This document shows positions 25,976 through 33,887 of a DNA stretch of 64,000 bases, in pieces. The position numbers were made by a program, and so were the translations under genes. Positions within the stretch are counted from its first letter, which is position 1. Each line of letters opens with the position of its first letter. Source of the stretch: an uncultured Clostridia bacterium (GTDB lineage: Bacteria > Bacillota > Clostridia > Oscillospirales > CAG-272); NCBI GenBank assembly GCA_947588825.1, contig CANPZU010000001.1, positions 50,237-114,236 of the forward strand, given 5' to 3'. The notes under the pieces are model-generated. The model was not told where the DNA came from and made no database searches. It saw nothing but the letters and a program-made list of their open reading frames with translations.

Positions 25976-27040
25976 TCAGATTTTAACGGTCCAGCCGAAG
26001 GTATCTTCGATCTTACCGTACTGAATGCCGGTCAATATGTCATAGAGCATATGGGTAGTCTCGCCGATTCTGCCGCCGCAGACGGTGTATTCGACGTCCT
26101 TATATATAAGCGCGCCTATAGGTGAGACGACTGCCGCGGTGCCGCAGCCCCAAGCCTCTTGCAAGCTTTTGTCGGCCATTGCGTCCTTAAGTTCGTCCAC
26201 CGAAATAAGTCTTTCGCTTACTTTATAGCCTTTGCTTTTCAGGACCTCGATGCAGGACTTACGGGTTATGCCGGGAAGAATGGAGCCGGTGAGGGCAGGT
26301 GTGACGATCTCGTCGTTTATTTTGAACATCACGTTCATTGCTCCGACTTCTTCGATGTACTTTCTTTCGACGCCGTCCAGCCAAAGAACCTGAGAATATC
26401 CCTTTTTCTCGGCTCTGTCTCCCGCTCTTGTAGAGGCGGCGTAGTTTCCGCCGCATTTGATATAGCCGGTGCCTCCACGTACCGCGCGGACGTCCTTATC
26501 CTCGATCATGATCTTGACCGGGTTGATGCCCTCTGCGTAGTAGCTTCCGCTGGGAGAGGCTATTATTGCAAAGACGGCGTTTTGAACGGTATGTACGCCG
26601 AGATGAGGGTCGTTTCCGAACATAAAGGGACGCAGATACAGGGATGTTCCATCGGAGTGCGGAACCCAATCCTGCTCTGTCTTAACGAAAGTTTTGATCG
26701 CGTTCAGCGCGTCTTCCTCGTTTATTGTGGGCAGGCAGAGTCTTTCGGCGGAGCTGTTTAGACGTTTTACATTTTGATCCGGACGGAAAAGCTGAACGCT
26801 GCCGTCGGCAAGGCGATAAGCTTTAAGCCCTTCGAAAATTTCGGCGCCGTAGTGAAGTACGGTAGATGCGGGATGGATGCTGAAGTTTTCAAAAGGCACT
26901 ATTCGCGCGTCATGCCAGCCGTTTTCGTGATCGTAGTTCATAAGGAACATGTGGTCGGTAAAAACTCTGCCGAAGCCGAGCGACGCATCATCGGGCTTTT
27001 CTTTGGGACAAGTGGTTTTAGTGATTTTAATGTCTATCAT
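25976..27040 (-). CDS. ilvE: branched-chain amino acid aminotransferase
   Basis: About 354 residues of the fold-type IV (class IV) family, with the PLP lysine K227 in ERKYIEEVGAMNV, the GGTGYIKCGGNYAAS block and the EAWGCGTAAVVSPIG cofactor-binding loop. It interconverts valine, leucine and isoleucine with their 2-oxo acids. ATG 27040 is preferred over TTG 27055 because GAGGAAA lies just upstream of it. It is the last gene of an eight-gene minus-strand set that begins behind an Ile/Val-rich leader peptide; its product or substrate is exactly the 2-oxo acid handled by the preceding vor genes. Confidence 0.96.
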   Translation of the reverse strand: MIDIKITKTTCPKEKPDDASLGFGRVFTDHMFLMNYDHENGWHDARIVPFENFSIHPASTVLHYGAEIFEGLKAYRLADGSVQLFRPDQNVKRLNSSAERLCLPTINEEDALNAIKTFVKTEQDWVPHSDGTSLYLRPFMFGNDPHLGVHTVQNAVFAIIASPSGSYYAEGINPVKIMIEDKDVRAVRGGTGYIKCGGNYAASTRAGDRAEKKGYSQVLWLDGVERKYIEEVGAMNVMFKINDEIVTPALTGSILPGITRKSCIEVLKSKGYKVSERLISVDELKDAMADKSLQEAWGCGTAAVVSPIGALIYKDVEYTVCGGRIGETTHMLYDILTGIQYGKIEDTFGWTVKI

Positions 27041-27094
27041 TGCGGTTTTCCTCAACTTCCTTTAATTATATTATTAATTATTATATGACATTCA

Positions 27095-27628
27095 TTAAAT
27101 ATTGTAACCCAATGTGACGGCGGCAAGGTTGCTGTCATAAAGATTGCGGTGTCTTTCGGATACCACTTTTGAAAGCGCGGCCTCGACGTAAGCGTTGCCA
27201 AGGGCCGGGCATTCTTTTATGACCTTACCCATGATTATCATGTTGGACAGCCCTGAATAACCGTTTTGCGAGGCGAGTTTTGTGGCGTCTATATTATGCA
27301 TCTTTACATCGTTTCTTTCTATCCCGCGAGAAATCAGGGTGCCGTCTATAAAGATCATACCGCCCGAGGCCACCGAGCTTTCGTATTTATCAAGAGAGGG
27401 AAGATTCATAGCGATCAGAATATCCGGGGCGCTTACAATGGGGGAGCCGATGCTTTCGTCGCTGATTATAACCGAGCAGTTTGCCGTGCCGCCTCTCATT
27501 TCGGGGCCATATGAGGGCAGCCAACTGACCTGCTTGTCCTCCATTAGTCCCATATACGCGAGAAATTTACCCGCAAACAGTACGCCCTGACCGCCAAAGC
27601 CGGCAATAAGAATCTGTGTCGTGCCCAT
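27095..27628 (-). CDS. vorC: 2-oxoacid:ferredoxin oxidoreductase gamma subunit
   Basis: The 177-residue protein is the gamma subunit, with [18 protein letters not shown] at the N terminus and [19 protein letters not shown] near 40-60. It couples to the alpha and beta subunits of a CoA-dependent oxidoreductase that interconverts branched 2-oxo acids and acyl-CoA with ferredoxin. Its start overlaps the vorA stop by one base. The 2-oxoisovalerate assignment rests on its ilvE neighbour; a 2-oxoglutarate enzyme (KorC) is the main alternative. Confidence 0.85.
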
Positions 27629-28392
27629 TACGCTTTCACCTCGCTGTCCTTTTGTGCGCTTTTGTCCTTGTATACCCCGAGAGGGTAATACGGGATCATT
27701 TTTTCATCTATCCATGCAAGTGCCTGATCGGGAGTCATCCCCCAGTTTGTCGGGCAGGAGGATATAACCTCTATAAGCGAAAATCCCTTTTTATTTATTT
27801 GATTTTCAAATGCTTTTTTTATTGCCCGTTTGGCGTTTTTTACGTTTTTAACGTTGTTTACCGCTACTCTTTCGAGATATTCGGGGCCGTCAAGATTTGA
27901 AAGCAGCTCGCATATCTTTATGGGGTATCCGCACACATTCACGTCTCTGCCGTAGGGCGAGGTCTGTGTGACCTGGCCGGGAAGGGAGGTGGGGGCCATC
28001 TGACCGCCCGTCATACCGTAAATTGCGTTATTTACGAATATGACCGTGATATTTTCGTTTCTGGTCGCCGCATGCACGGTCTCTGCCATACCGATTGAGG
28101 CGAGATCGCCGTCGCCTTGGTATGTAAATATTATATTGTCGGGCATTGCGCGTTTGAGACCGGTCGCAACGGCGGGGGCGCGTCCGTGAGCGGCTTCTAC
28201 CATATCGCAGGCAAAATAGTTATACGCCATTACCGCGCAGCCCACAGGAGCGACTCCGACGGTTTTGCCTTCAATTTTCAAATCGTCGATTGCCTCTGCC
28301 ACAAGGCGGTGAATGATTCCGTGCGTACAGCCCGGGCAGTAATGCAGCGCGGCGTCTGTAAGCGCGTGTGGTTTTTCAAAAACTATGCTCAT
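27628..28392 (-). CDS. vorA: 2-oxoacid:ferredoxin oxidoreductase beta (TPP) subunit
   Basis: The 254-residue subunit binds thiamine pyrophosphate: [13 protein letters not shown] at the N terminus and the TPP/Mg motif [21 protein letters not shown], ending in [15 protein letters not shown]. It has no ferredoxin domain of its own; that is supplied by vorD. It lies between vorB (63 bases upstream) and vorC (overlapping), giving the delta-alpha-beta-gamma order seen in Vor/Kor clusters. Confidence 0.88.
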
Positions 28393-28455: not shown

Positions 28456-29538
<1,083 letters not shown>

Positions 29539-29550
29539 TTCCTTTCTCTT

Positions 29551-29757
29551 TCACTTTTCCACGGTGATGACGCAGTCCGGGCACATGGTGGCGCAGAATG
29601 CACAGCCGATGCATTTTTCTTCGTCGGTCATCTCGGCGGGAGAGTGTCCTTTTTTGTTTAGTTTGTCTTTTGAAAGTACGATCAGTTTTTTTGGGCACAC
29701 GGTGACGCAAAGACCGCATCCCTTGCAAAGATCGGTTTTAAAAGTGACTTTTGCCAT
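29551..29757 (-). CDS. vorD: 2-oxoacid oxidoreductase delta subunit, 2[4Fe-4S] ferredoxin
   Basis: A 68-residue ferredoxin-like protein with two cluster motifs, CKGCGLCVTVCPKK and CIGCAFCATMCPDC. It is the electron-transfer subunit that docks on the alpha-beta core and passes electrons to or from free ferredoxin. It sits two bases after the P-loop ATPase gene and 12 before vorB, so translation is tightly linked. Confidence 0.9.
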   Translation of the reverse strand: MAKVTFKTDLCKGCGLCVTVCPKKLIVLSKDKLNKKGHSPAEMTDEEKCIGCAFCATMCPDCVITVEK

Positions 29758-29759
29758 AC

Positions 29760-30458
29760 TTAGTTTTCCTTTTTCTCCTTTATATCGTAGTACCTTTCGT
29801 CAATGACGAGAGGAAGAACGTCTTCGTTTTCGTACCCGGGAAGAGGGCAGAGCCTGATATCGGCGCAGGTAAAGTGCAAAGGCAGCTTTGAAAGTTCACA
29901 CAGCTCTCTTATAAAATCCCGCGAAGCGAGAATATCGTCTGAGGCGGTATCTCTTCCTATGTTGGAGTTGTTGACGATTCCCGTGAATTTTAAGGAGCAG
30001 GCGCCTTCAATCTCCCTCAATACCTCATATGCCTCGCGGGCGTTTCTTGTCAGCGGACGGTAGCAGCTTGCGACGAAAAGCATGTTATAATTGTTTTCCT
30101 CACGAATATAGGGTACATATCTGCCGAGAGCAAGCGCGCCGCGATCATCTCCGCCGATATCGAGTACCGCGTATTTGTCCTTTCGGTCAAATATTCCGTA
30201 GGTCTCCTGAGGCATTGCGGGAAGATCGACATTTGAATTTGCAAAGCGTGAGGATATGAGCTCTATTTTTTCTTTTTCCAGCAGGTTTGCGCTGTCTTTT
30301 GTGCGAAAATAAGGGTTAACAATGTCAAGGTCGGCAATGACAACCTGACTTCCTTTTCGCTTAAGGTAAAGCGCGAAATTAACGGCGATGCTTGTTTTGC
30401 CGCTTCCGTAGTGACCGGCAAAGAGTGTAATTCGTTTTTGTTCTTTCATAAATGACAC
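29760..30458 (-). CDS. SIMIBI-type P-loop ATPase of unknown role
   Basis: The 232-residue protein has a Walker A of the form FAGHYGSGKTSIAVNFALYL, a VVIADLDIVNPYFR switch region and VLDIGGDDRGALALG, placing it near MinD/CobQ-type ATPases. GTG 30458 is chosen because AAGGA is seven bases upstream; an ATG nine bases on is possible. Its place immediately before vorD suggests a maturation or assembly role for the iron-sulfur oxidoreductase, but that is only inferred from position. Confidence 0.75.
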   Translation of the reverse strand: MSFMKEQKRITLFAGHYGSGKTSIAVNFALYLKRKGSQVVIADLDIVNPYFRTKDSANLLEKEKIELISSRFANSNVDLPAMPQETYGIFDRKDKYAVLDIGGDDRGALALGRYVPYIREENNYNMLFVASCYRPLTRNAREAYEVLREIEGACSLKFTGIVNNSNIGRDTASDDILASRDFIRELCELSKLPLHFTCADIRLCPLPGYENEDVLPLVIDERYYDIKEKKEN

Positions 30459-30502: not shown

Positions 30503-32770
30503 TCAGAGCTTGTTTCTTTGTATTTTGCCGCTTATGGTTTTAGGCAGTTCATCTCTGAACACCACTATTCTCGGATATTTATATGGCGCTGTGTGGGTCT
30601 TGACGTAGTTTTGGATTTCTTTCTTGAGTTCTTCGGTAGGCTCAGTCCCTTTTGTGAGCACGATAGAAGCCTTGACCACCTGACCGCGTATTTCATCGGG
30701 CGCGGCGGAAACCCCGCATTCAAGGACATACGGAAGCTCCATAATGACGTTTTCAATCTCAAACGGTCCTATTCTGTAGCCTGAGGATTTTATAACGTCG
30801 TCGACTCTTCCGACATACCAATAGTAGCCGTCCTCGTCCTTCCACGCAGTGTCACCCGTGTGATACATGCCGTCGTGCCAAGCTTCGTTTGTAAGTTCCT
30901 CGTTGTTATAATAACCGGTAAAGAGCCCGCAGGGAGCGCCTTTGTCCGTTCTTATCACTATTTCTCCCGTCTCTCCTATCGGAACGGGTCTGCCCTTGTC
31001 GTCAACTATATCGACGTCGTAAAGGGGAGAGGGCTTTCCCATCGAGCCCAGCCTTATCTCCGTTCCGTAAAGGGTGCCTATAACAAGAGTGGTTTCGGTC
31101 TGTCCGAAGCCTTCCATAATTTGAAGGCCGGTTGCCTTTTCAAACTGTTTGAATACCTCGGGATTGAGGGCCTCGCCCGCGGTCGTCATATTATGTATTG
31201 ACGAAAGATCGAACCTCGAGATATCTTCCTTTATCATCATGCGCAGCATAGTCGGAGGAGCGCAGAAGGTGGTTATATTGTACTTTTTGAACATCGGAAG
31301 TATCAGGTTGGGATCAAAACGGTCAAAGTCGTAAACGAATATCGCTCCTTCGGAGAGCCACTGACCGTATATCTTCCCCCAAAGCGCCTTGCCCCAGCCT
31401 GTGTCCGAAATGGTGAGGTGCAGACCGTCGCGTTCGACGCAGTGCCAGTATTTTGCTGTTATGAAATGCCCGAGCGAGTATTTGTGAGAATGCATCGCGA
31501 TCTTCGGATAGCCGGTGGTGCCTGAAGTGAAATACATGACGCAAGGCTCGTCTCCGCAGGAGGATTCCTCGGTCCTTGTAAATCTGCCGGTGTAAAGTAT
31601 ATATTCTTCGTCGAAATTATGCCAACCCTCGCGGCATCCGCCTACCATGATCTTTGTTTTGAGAGTGGGAGAGAGCTTTTCGGCGTTTTCCACATGCTTT
31701 GACACGTCGCCGTCGGCGGTGCACACTATCGCCGAGACTCCGGCGGCGTTAAAACGGTATTCAAGGTCGTGAGTCACAAGCTGATATGTGGCGGGTATCG
31801 CCACGGCGCCCAGCTTTTCAAGAGCTACCATACAGAACCAAAAATGATAATGCCTTTTCAGGATCAGCATCACCCTGTCTCCCTTTTTTATTCCGAGCGA
31901 CTTAAAATAGTTTGCCGTCTGATTAGAGGCTCTTTTGATGTCGGCAAAGGTAAAACGCCTTTCGACAAGATTTTTATCGACATGAAGCATGGCAAGCTTG
32001 TCGGGATAGACCCTTGCCAGCTCGTCCACGCAGTCGAAAGCAAAGTTGAACTTGTCTTCGTTTTGAAAGGCTATCGAGACAAGCTGCCCTTTTTCGTTCT
32101 CTGTTGTCTTTATGAATTTGTCGCAGAGCAGCTTGTAATTGTCTCTTGCGTGAGCTATGCTTTCGCCCGCTTTCTTTTCCTCGACGTTCTCGTCTCCGGG
32201 AAGAACAATCGCCACAAAGTTGCAGGGAGCGTTGTCGACGGCTATCATGCCGTGGGGTGTTGACGAATTGTAAAGTATCGAGTCGCCTGCCGAAAGCACC
32301 TCGGTGTGATCTCCAACCCTTACCTTGAGCGAGCCGGATATGATATAGTCAAACTCCTGACCCGAGTGGGTGTCTGTGCGTATCGGCTTGTTCTGAAGCT
32401 CCTCTTCATAGTCGTAAGTGACATAATATGGCTCGGCAATTTTCCCTACGAACTGTGAAGCGAGATTTTTTATAAGTATCCCGTTTTCATCCACGGTTAC
32501 CTTGCCATCCCCCGCCCGAGTGACTTGATACGAGGTCAGACGAGGGCTGTAGCCTTCGAGCAGATCCGCGATGTTTATTCCGAAAATCAGGGCGCATTTA
32601 TGCATAAATGAAAAGGGAAAGTCAAAGTTGCCGCTTTCATAGCATGCGTAGTCTTCCGGCGAGACCTCGGTTTTTTGTGCCATTTCCTGTTGGGACAGTC
32701 CCAGTATCTCACGCATTTCGCGGATTCTTGCGGCCACGTCTCTTGCGGAGCTTGTCTGATTGCTGTTCAT
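30503..32770 (-). CDS. XRE-cupin-acyl-CoA synthetase fusion protein
   Basis: The 755-residue protein has three parts: an XRE helix-turn-helix (about 11-66, with LGLSQQEMAQKTEVSPEDYA), a cupin (about 118-195, with HSGQEFDYIISGSLKV and STPHGMIAV) and an AMP-forming acyl-CoA synthetase (about 220-750). The synthetase has TSGTTGYPKIAMHSH, TISDTGWGKALWGKIYGQW, YHTGDTAW and the C-terminal catalytic lysine in SGKIQRNKL. The GWGKALWGK region is typical of medium-chain acyl-CoA synthetases, some of which activate branched short acids. Here it would make isobutyryl-, isovaleryl- or 2-methylbutyryl-CoA for the vor enzyme. The regulator fused to the enzyme may sense substrate or regulate the operon. Confidence 0.85.
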   Translation of the reverse strand: MNSNQTSSARDVAARIREMREILGLSQQEMAQKTEVSPEDYACYESGNFDFPFSFMHKCALIFGINIADLLEGYSPRLTSYQVTRAGDGKVTVDENGILIKNLASQFVGKIAEPYYVTYDYEEELQNKPIRTDTHSGQEFDYIISGSLKVRVGDHTEVLSAGDSILYNSSTPHGMIAVDNAPCNFVAIVLPGDENVEEKKAGESIAHARDNYKLLCDKFIKTTENEKGQLVSIAFQNEDKFNFAFDCVDELARVYPDKLAMLHVDKNLVERRFTFADIKRASNQTANYFKSLGIKKGDRVMLILKRHYHFWFCMVALEKLGAVAIPATYQLVTHDLEYRFNAAGVSAIVCTADGDVSKHVENAEKLSPTLKTKIMVGGCREGWHNFDEEYILYTGRFTRTEESSCGDEPCVMYFTSGTTGYPKIAMHSHKYSLGHFITAKYWHCVERDGLHLTISDTGWGKALWGKIYGQWLSEGAIFVYDFDRFDPNLILPMFKKYNITTFCAPPTMLRMMIKEDISRFDLSSIHNMTTAGEALNPEVFKQFEKATGLQIMEGFGQTETTLVIGTLYGTEIRLGSMGKPSPLYDVDIVDDKGRPVPIGETGEIVIRTDKGAPCGLFTGYYNNEELTNEAWHDGMYHTGDTAWKDEDGYYWYVGRVDDVIKSSGYRIGPFEIENVIMELPYVLECGVSAAPDEIRGQVVKASIVLTKGTEPTEELKKEIQNYVKTHTAPYKYPRIVVFRDELPKTISGKIQRNKL

Positions 32771-32823: not shown

Positions 32824-33621
32824 TCAATTAAAGTTGATATTAAAAAGCCTTGCGGCGTTTTTATACAGTATGTCCTCGCGTTCCTTTTCACTAAAATCAA
32901 GCTGCATAAAGCGGCCCACTTCTTCATACGGATTCCACATTGGAAAGTCGCTTCCGAACATGACTCTTGACGTACCGTACTTCATTATTATTTTTTTCGC
33001 GCTCGCAGGGTCGAGTGCGTAAAGTGAGGAGGAGCAGTCGACAAGGAGATTTTCGTATCCCGAAAGCTCCTTTGCGGCGTATTCCCAAAGCGACCATCCG
33101 CCAAGATGGGCGCCTATGACGGTTAGACGCGGAAAGGCCTTGAGTACGGGGATTATGTTTTGAGGGTTTGAATAGCTGTATCTGCTGTCCCCCATATGTA
33201 TGCATACCGGCAGACGTCCCTGCACAAGCTCAAATATCTCCATGGCCTTTTTGCTGTCCGTTTTGAATCTCTGTATATCGGGATGCAGCTTTACTCCCAC
33301 AAGGCCGAGCGATATTATTTCATTTACGTCGGCTTCTATATCCCCGCTTTCAGGGTGGAGCGTTCCCATACCGATAAAAACGCCGAGTTTTTCATTTACG
33401 GTGGAGGAAATATAGGAGTTTATAGCGTGTACCTGCTCGGGAGTAGTTGCAACCGAGTTGACAATATACTTCTCTATTCCCGCTTTTTTCCCCTCGCTGA
33501 GCAGGGTCTCTACCCGTCCGTCAAGCCTTGGAGTCATGTTATAGAACGTGCCTGTGGCCGCAGTAGCCTTTTCAGCAATTTTATCGGGGTATATGTGGCA
33601 GTGTGTGTCTATGATTTTCAT
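32824..33621 (-). CDS. amidohydrolase 2 family TIM-barrel enzyme
   Basis: About 265 residues with the metal motif DTHCHIYPDK at the start, VGVKLHPDIQRF, CIHMGDSRY, IGAHLGGWSLWEYA and GSDFPMWNPYEE, the complete site of the PF04909 family (decarboxylases and hydrolases such as ACMSD-type enzymes). ATG 33621 follows GGGAGAAAAC; an upstream in-frame start would place codons across the attenuator terminator. It is the first gene after the Ile/Val leader. The substrate is not evident, and why it leads a branched-chain acid operon is an open question. Confidence 0.85.
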   Translation of the reverse strand: MKIIDTHCHIYPDKIAEKATAATGTFYNMTPRLDGRVETLLSEGKKAGIEKYIVNSVATTPEQVHAINSYISSTVNEKLGVFIGMGTLHPESGDIEADVNEIISLGLVGVKLHPDIQRFKTDSKKAMEIFELVQGRLPVCIHMGDSRYSYSNPQNIIPVLKAFPRLTVIGAHLGGWSLWEYAAKELSGYENLLVDCSSSLYALDPASAKKIIMKYGTSRVMFGSDFPMWNPYEEVGRFMQLDFSEKEREDILYKNAARLFNINFN

Positions 33622-33659
33622 GTTTTCTCCCGTTCCAAGCGTTATGCGGTAAAAAAGAA

Positions 33660-33683
33660 GGCCCACAACATCAGCTGTGAGCC
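33660..33683 (-). terminator. attenuator terminator between leader peptide and operon
   Basis: On the minus strand GGCTCACA pairs with TGTGGGCC (33683-33676 with 33667-33660, one G-U pair), followed by TTCTTTTTTA. It ends 28 bases before the amidohydrolase start, so transcripts that stop here never reach the operon. Confidence 0.8.
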
Positions 33684-33716
33684 CATGAAGCATTTAAAAC
33701 GGTCTTGTAAATGCTC

Positions 33717-33824
33717 TTATTTCTGTGCACGACAACCGACGCTATTAATGTCCTTACGTATTATCGGGACAATAATAATAGCGTTGATAATAATGGATAT
33801 CACTATTACAGCGTTTCCTGTCAT
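33717..33824 (-). CDS. Ile/Val-rich leader peptide (attenuation)
   Basis: A 35-residue ORF: ATG at 33824, TAA at 33719-33717. It contains VIVISIIINAIIIVPII and in total 11 Ile and 4 Val but no Leu codons. AGGTG lies nine bases before the ATG, and the -10 box is about 35 bases upstream. Within it, ACGCTATTA (33784-33776 as read on the minus strand) can pair with TAATAGCGT (33747-33739), helped by TGTCC/GGACA, and AGCATTT/AAATGCT (33715-33709 with 33695-33689) lies just before the terminator hairpin. This is the architecture of an ilv leader. A short membrane peptide is the alternative, but codon bias plus terminator favour attenuation. Confidence 0.75.
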   Translation of the reverse strand: MTGNAVIVISIIINAIIIVPIIRKDINSVGCRAQK

Positions 33825-33858
33825 CGCGTCAAGCACCTTATCTAAATTACTTTGTAGG

Positions 33859-33887
33859 ATTATACCACATGTTCGGCCGTATGTCAA
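33859..33887 (-). promoter_or_regulatory. promoter of the leader-vor-ilvE operon
   Basis: Minus strand: TTGACA (33887-33882), 17-base spacer, TATAAT (33864-33859), a perfect consensus. The expected start point is near 33852, giving a leader of about 230 bases before the first structural gene. Confidence 0.88.

Follow-up and report, generated by a model that had tools for sequence, protein, structure and literature searches.

A putative isoleucine-responsive leader-peptide attenuator in the place of a T-box upstream of a branched-chain amino acid operon in an uncultured Clostridia bacterium

The window analysed here, a stretch of 64,000 nucleotides from the genome of an uncultured Clostridia bacterium, carries on its minus strand an operon beginning with an amidohydrolase gene (32824–33621; PF04909 domain match). 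This is followed by a gene for an HTH-cupin-acyl-CoA synthetase (30503–32770), assigned by family and domain matches with MbcS as the best NCBIfam match, below its cut-off, and by one for a P-loop (CbiA/ParA-like) ATPase (29760–30458; domain match). Family and domain matches also identified a ferredoxin-type delta subunit (VorD-like; 29551–29757), a TPP-binding beta subunit (VorA; 27628–28392) and a gamma subunit (VorC; 27095–27628), with family matches over the cut-off for VorB, 3-methyl-2-oxobutanoate dehydrogenase alpha (28456–29538), and for the branched-chain aminotransferase IlvE (25976–27055). The operon probably makes isoleucine and valine from branched short-chain fatty acids of the rumen or gut: the MbcS-like synthetase would activate 2-methylbutyrate or isobutyrate to the acyl-CoA, VOR would carboxylate the acyl-CoA, if as we infer it acts in the reductive direction, and IlvE would then transaminate the product to Ile or Val. 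It should also be noted that the HTH and cupin domains fused ahead of the acyl-CoA synthetase represent an unusual sensor-enzyme fusion, which the relatives have too.

Upstream of the operon on the same strand lies an exact TTGACA-N17-TATAAT promoter (33859–33887), with its −35 region at 33887–33882 and its −10 region at 33864–33859 separated by a 17-nt spacer, as had been described in an initial annotation of this DNA. Five exact matches to this consensus occur in the 64-kb window against about none in simulated sequence, so the promoter looks like the standard strong type of this genome and not one unique to the leader. A Shine-Dalgarno-like AAGGTG (33834–33839) is situated 9 nt 5′ of the ATG of a predicted leader peptide ORF of 35 codons (MTGNAVIVISIIINAIIIVPIIRKDINSVGCRAQK; 33717–33824, with the ATG at 33824 and the stop codon ending at 33717), for which homologous leaders were found in 10 other genomes. 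Its reported content of 11 Ile, 4 Val and no Leu codons was confirmed in the sequence, and an open frame in which 13 or more of 17 residues are Ile or Val was encountered once in the window and in none of 40 Markov simulations. Between this ORF and the first operon gene lies an intrinsic terminator, predicted by folding and from an 11-sequence alignment (GGGCUCACA...UGUGGGCCU and a T-run; 33651–33684), with stem arms at 33684–33676 and 33667–33659 and a T-run reaching 33651. The hairpin and T-run were correctly placed ahead of the first gene at the outset; the distance from the end of the T-run to the first operon ATG at 33621, originally given as 28 bases, reads 29 nt. The leader RNA has a folding z of −3.6.

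The leader recurs in the closest genomes, namely G004 (record L031, rabbit-derived), whose synthetase is 86% identical to that of the window genome, G005 (goat rumen) and L033 (RUG14169). In G005 and L033 it precedes a LeuA-like synthase and a ligase, followed in L033 by the amidohydrolase and the synthetase. Two pairing segments had been noted inside the ORF and were found again, namely CGCUAUUA, which lies in the Ile block, and its partner UAAUAGCG. In the ribosome-free fold, segment 1 (AACGCUAUUA; 33776–33785, within the Ile codons) lies on segment 2 (AAUAGCGUCGGUUGUCGUGC; 33727–33746, codons NSVGCRA), with ACGCUAUU in the Ile codons on AAUAGCGU in the codons NSV, followed by a spacer hairpin (33687–33716) between segments 2 and 3 and by the terminator, formed by segments 3 and 4. 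The spacer hairpin is kept in the minimum free energy folds of the four closest leaders despite their differing sequence. Segment 3 (CAGCUGAUGUUGU; 33665–33677) spans the loop of the terminator and extends into both of its arms, and is at the same time the partner of segment 2 in an alternative helix of 13 bp, in which AUAGCGUCGGUUG (33745–33733) pairs with 33677–33665. This 2:3 helix represents the antiterminator, the element that had not been spotted by eye in the initial annotation. Antiterminator and terminator are mutually exclusive, and the protector helix 1:2 overlaps the control codons.

Folding with and without a ribosome on the Ile block, as the initial annotation had proposed, revealed the expected switch in part. 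In a transcript ending just past segment 3 the 2:3 helix formed in silico with P = 1.0 when the ribosomal A site was at codons 10–24, and with P = 0 when the ribosome was downstream of these codons. The truncated window transcript, however, formed the 2:3 pairing even with the A site at codons 1–3, when few codons have been read, which implies that ribosome position and timing both matter. In the full-length RNA, P(terminator) was near 1 with the ribosome absent, at the start or at the stop, and the lowest equilibrium values obtained with a stalled ribosome were 0.55 for the window leader, 0.97 for G004, 0.84 for G005 and 0.02 for L033, the terminator still being favoured in three of the four. 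For the mechanism to work, segment 3 would thus have to be captured co-transcriptionally, before segment 4 exists, and so in these models termination would be the default state, with antitermination dependent on such capture. Upon random synonymous recoding of the four leaders, the terminator was lost equally cheaply in 63/300, 67/300, 9/300 and 28/300 cases, and energy alone is therefore not diagnostic. As codons 10–24 of the window leader comprise eight Ile codons and one Val codon, Ile is the main predicted signal. The sensing of Ile and Val originally suggested would consequently be mainly that of Ile, with a weaker part left to Val, which has one codon among those at which a stalled ribosome is predicted to expose the antiterminator.

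Across the four closest genomes all nine invariant leader residues are encoded by an identical codon, compared with 78 of 496 invariant residues (16%) in the nearby synthetase (leader versus synthetase, about 6e-8), and segment 2 in particular shows this codon-level freeze. The peptide blocks that are conserved, NAII and SVGCR, map to RNA segments 1 and 2, and the residues outside them vary freely apart from staying Ile, Leu or Val. These patterns bear on the possibility that the product of the 35-codon ORF is a small membrane protein with a function of its own and that the terminator merely divides two transcription units, a reading which would suit the peptide core of 17 hydrophobic residues, resembling one transmembrane helix, and the similarity of the leader protein sequence among the four close genomes. 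It is nevertheless considered very unlikely, since selection on a protein would not demand identical codons, since the conserved blocks fall on the pairing segments with the remainder free within Ile, Leu and Val, and since the C-terminal block tracks its pairing partner in another order (see below). The 2:3 helix itself has 13 of 13 pairs intact in all four genomes, against 20–63% in slid registers. As segment 2 is invariant there, an alignment of these four sequences cannot reveal two-sided change, and a sampling of 11 sequences was used instead.

A model built on the four closest leaders was used to find this wider family, in which the leader ORF, the Ile codons, segments 1 to 4 and the terminator recur in 11 genomes belonging to two clostridial orders. 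The proposal of ribosome-mediated attenuation, which had been made to depend in part on conservation of the ORF and its Ile codons in relatives, is hence supported as the best explanation of the locus. The seven further leaders all come from one genus of another order, six of them preceding a LeuA-like synthase and one ilvE, and every one of the 11 leaders is located before a branched-chain or associated gene (the amidohydrolase-MbcS-VOR operon, a LeuA-like synthase or IlvE). In L207, from this other order, the homologous leader stands immediately upstream of ilvE. Searches of narrower reach returned few genuine cases: the exact pattern GCGTCGGTTGTCGTGC with one mismatch gave only the window and G004 as real among 394 genomes of the order, the other matches being without a leader, and model R1 gave three real matches in 295 genomes of the family, its weak ones being examined and rejected. 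Weak matches to models R2 and R3 (L208–L212, L217, L221, L226, L229 and L230) were likewise rejected on reading them.

The terminator of the other order differs in sequence (GACCUGCGGC...GCCGCAGGUC) and segment 2 is altered in step, with GCGCUGUUUGUCG pairing with CGGCAAGUAGUGC. Over the 11 sequences, 97% of the cells of the 2:3 helix pair and four pairs change on both sides, against 28–66% pairing in slides, in a register that was set by hand with 3-nt and 1-nt bulges removed from two rows, and with most of the two-sided changes separating the two lineages and so reflecting few events. The segment 1:2 helix is paired in 92% of cells and the terminator in 97%, with seven two-sided pairs. Some of the other species' leaders contain Leu codons too. 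Three observations argue against the idea that the 5′ terminator attenuates constitutively and that the Ile-rich ORF is incidental: the leader is conserved at branched-chain genes in both orders, the alternative helices covary, and the 40 simulations gave no Ile/Val-rich ORF. That reading, to which the prevalence of the terminator at equilibrium in most states would lend itself, is regarded as improbable in the extreme.

Clostridia are textbook T-box users. This premise of the initial annotation, there worded for Bacillota at large, holds in the window genome, where T-boxes precede ilvBNC (specifier read as CUC), valS, trp, pheST and other genes. The conserved operon of the relatives has the order synthetase 1, synthetase 2, P-loop, ferredoxin and VorB-A-C, and most of these relatives (L002–L110) have two successive T-boxes in this one operon, whose specifiers are AUC (Ile) at synthetase 1 and GUA (Val) at synthetase 2. 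Specifiers were obtained by pattern reading of the T-boxes anchored on Rfam alignments, giving 81 readings of AUC at synthetase 1, 49 of GUA at synthetase 2 and two of GUC, with some loci counted twice. Among the 81 rows of the synthetase 1 tree, 74 carry a T-box core, four the leader and two neither, with one unknown. The four leader rows group in a single clade (SH-aLRT 99) that lies within the T-box rows, and one replacement of the Ile T-box by the leader is therefore the simplest history. In L031, L032 and L033, the region ahead of the first synthetase gave no Rfam T-box at gathering score. The leader probably replaced an Ile-specific T-box once, ahead of an orthologous synthetase, as far as may be judged from these sequences. 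Synthetase 2 persists in G005, together with the Val T-box, and in L033, together with a T-box core; it is absent from the window genome and from G004, and the leaders of these two carry Val codons. Two T-boxes for Ile and Val tRNAs and two synthetases in the relatives correspond to one synthetase and one Ile/Val leader in the window genome.

The presence of T-boxes at the same place in relatives raises the prospect that the terminator is switched by a factor other than the ribosome, such as uncharged tRNA acting on a reduced T-box, a small molecule or a protein. A search of the window against Rfam gave no family matching the leader at gathering score, T-box RF00230 included, and none of the Leu, Trp, His and Thr leader families of Rfam scored above its gathering threshold. 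As the ATG, the SD-like sequence and the Ile-rich codons, which none of those factors would need, are kept throughout, a switch of this type is extremely unlikely. A BLAST search against plasmids gave no match.

Further leaders were reached with a model from the 11 leaders, which detected Ile/Val/Leu-rich leaders before ilvB. Upstream of 30 ilvB genes there were eight leader-plus-terminator cases, with no T-box detected at any of the eight ilvB genes concerned, and the same screen on control regions gave 2/643 matches. Rfam confirms T-boxes at many of the remaining ilvB genes. The eight cases (L252, L253, L254, L241, L245, L250, L256 and L257, at a position where other relatives have a T-box) include three congeners of the window genome (G001–G003). 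These three carry a candidate leader at ilvB, where a T-box is present in the window genome and in G004, both of which have their leader at vor. In L227 and L228 a Phe/Tyr-rich leader (MNSTFAYFYFSFIYFVDK...) followed by a terminator precedes an aroF-like DAHP synthase gene, and this is likely to be an aromatic leader-peptide attenuator of the same family. Considered jointly, there is a reasonable probability that ribosome-mediated attenuation is a common alternative to the T-box in uncultured gut Clostridia, swapped repeatedly at the same genes, and that a single family of leader RNAs acts at MbcS/VOR, LeuA-like and IlvE operons and, having diverged, at those of IlvB.

Judged on the comparative sequence evidence, the locus is very probably a four-segment ribosome-mediated transcription attenuator with Ile as its main signal, in place of the Ile T-box of the relatives. 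RNA polymerase would start at the consensus promoter and a ribosome would translate the Ile-rich leader. With ample Ile-tRNA, or in the absence of a ribosome, segment 2 would be covered by the ribosome or held on segment 1, and the 3:4 terminator would stop transcription before the operon. Were charged Ile-tRNA scarce, the ribosome would stall with its A site at codons 10–24, masking segment 1, and the freed segment 2 would capture segment 3 as it emerges, with the spacer hairpin enclosed in the 2:3 helix, leading to read-through. A shortage of Val would be expected to have a weaker effect, as Val has a single codon within codons 10–24. Ribosome stalling, termination and read-through are predicted to take this course in vivo. 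Such a leader also suggests how an operon whose probable role is the conversion of branched short-chain fatty acids to Ile and Val may be regulated. T-boxes and a member of this structured family of probable leader-peptide attenuators occur side by side in the window genome, and the apparent replacement of the Ile T-box at an orthologous gene allows the states before and after to be compared within one clade.

The attenuator of ilvGMEDA in E. coli and Salmonella (IlvL) consists of an Ile/Val-rich leader peptide with competing 1:2, 2:3 and 3:4 helices and a terminator before branched-chain genes. The window leader resembles it in the Ile/Val-rich peptide, the competing helices and the intrinsic terminator, and differs in its phylum, in its acyl-CoA synthetase/VOR/IlvE operon, in its predicted response mainly to Ile and in the lack of Leu codons in the window genome. 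No leader-peptide attenuator for such an MbcS/VOR/IlvE operon was reported in the literature searched. Leader-peptide attenuation in Bacillota and swaps of T-boxes for leaders are already known; the RNA family itself is new and is not listed in Rfam. Branched-chain biosynthesis was found to be T-box-regulated in Clostridia in a T-box survey (PMC2494555), and whereas the T-box (RF00230) senses tRNA charging by antitermination, sensing at the window leader, which has no Rfam T-box match, is proposed to be by the ribosome. In Bacillus, the histidine leader peptides of hisS*/hisZ also stand in place of T-boxes in Firmicutes (PMC2965389), in that case with His codons and at duplicated genes of the tRNA-synthetase type, whereas the apparent swap described here affects a biosynthetic gene that is orthologous between close relatives. 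The ilv-leu operon of S. aureus has a leucine-rich attenuator peptide before ilvD, with a proposed antiterminator that pairs with the poly-U tail, where B. subtilis has a T-box (PMC5794164). The window leader shares with it leader-peptide attenuation of branched-chain genes in Bacillota, and is distinguished from it by an Ile-rich peptide and by a predicted 13-bp antiterminator with covariation.
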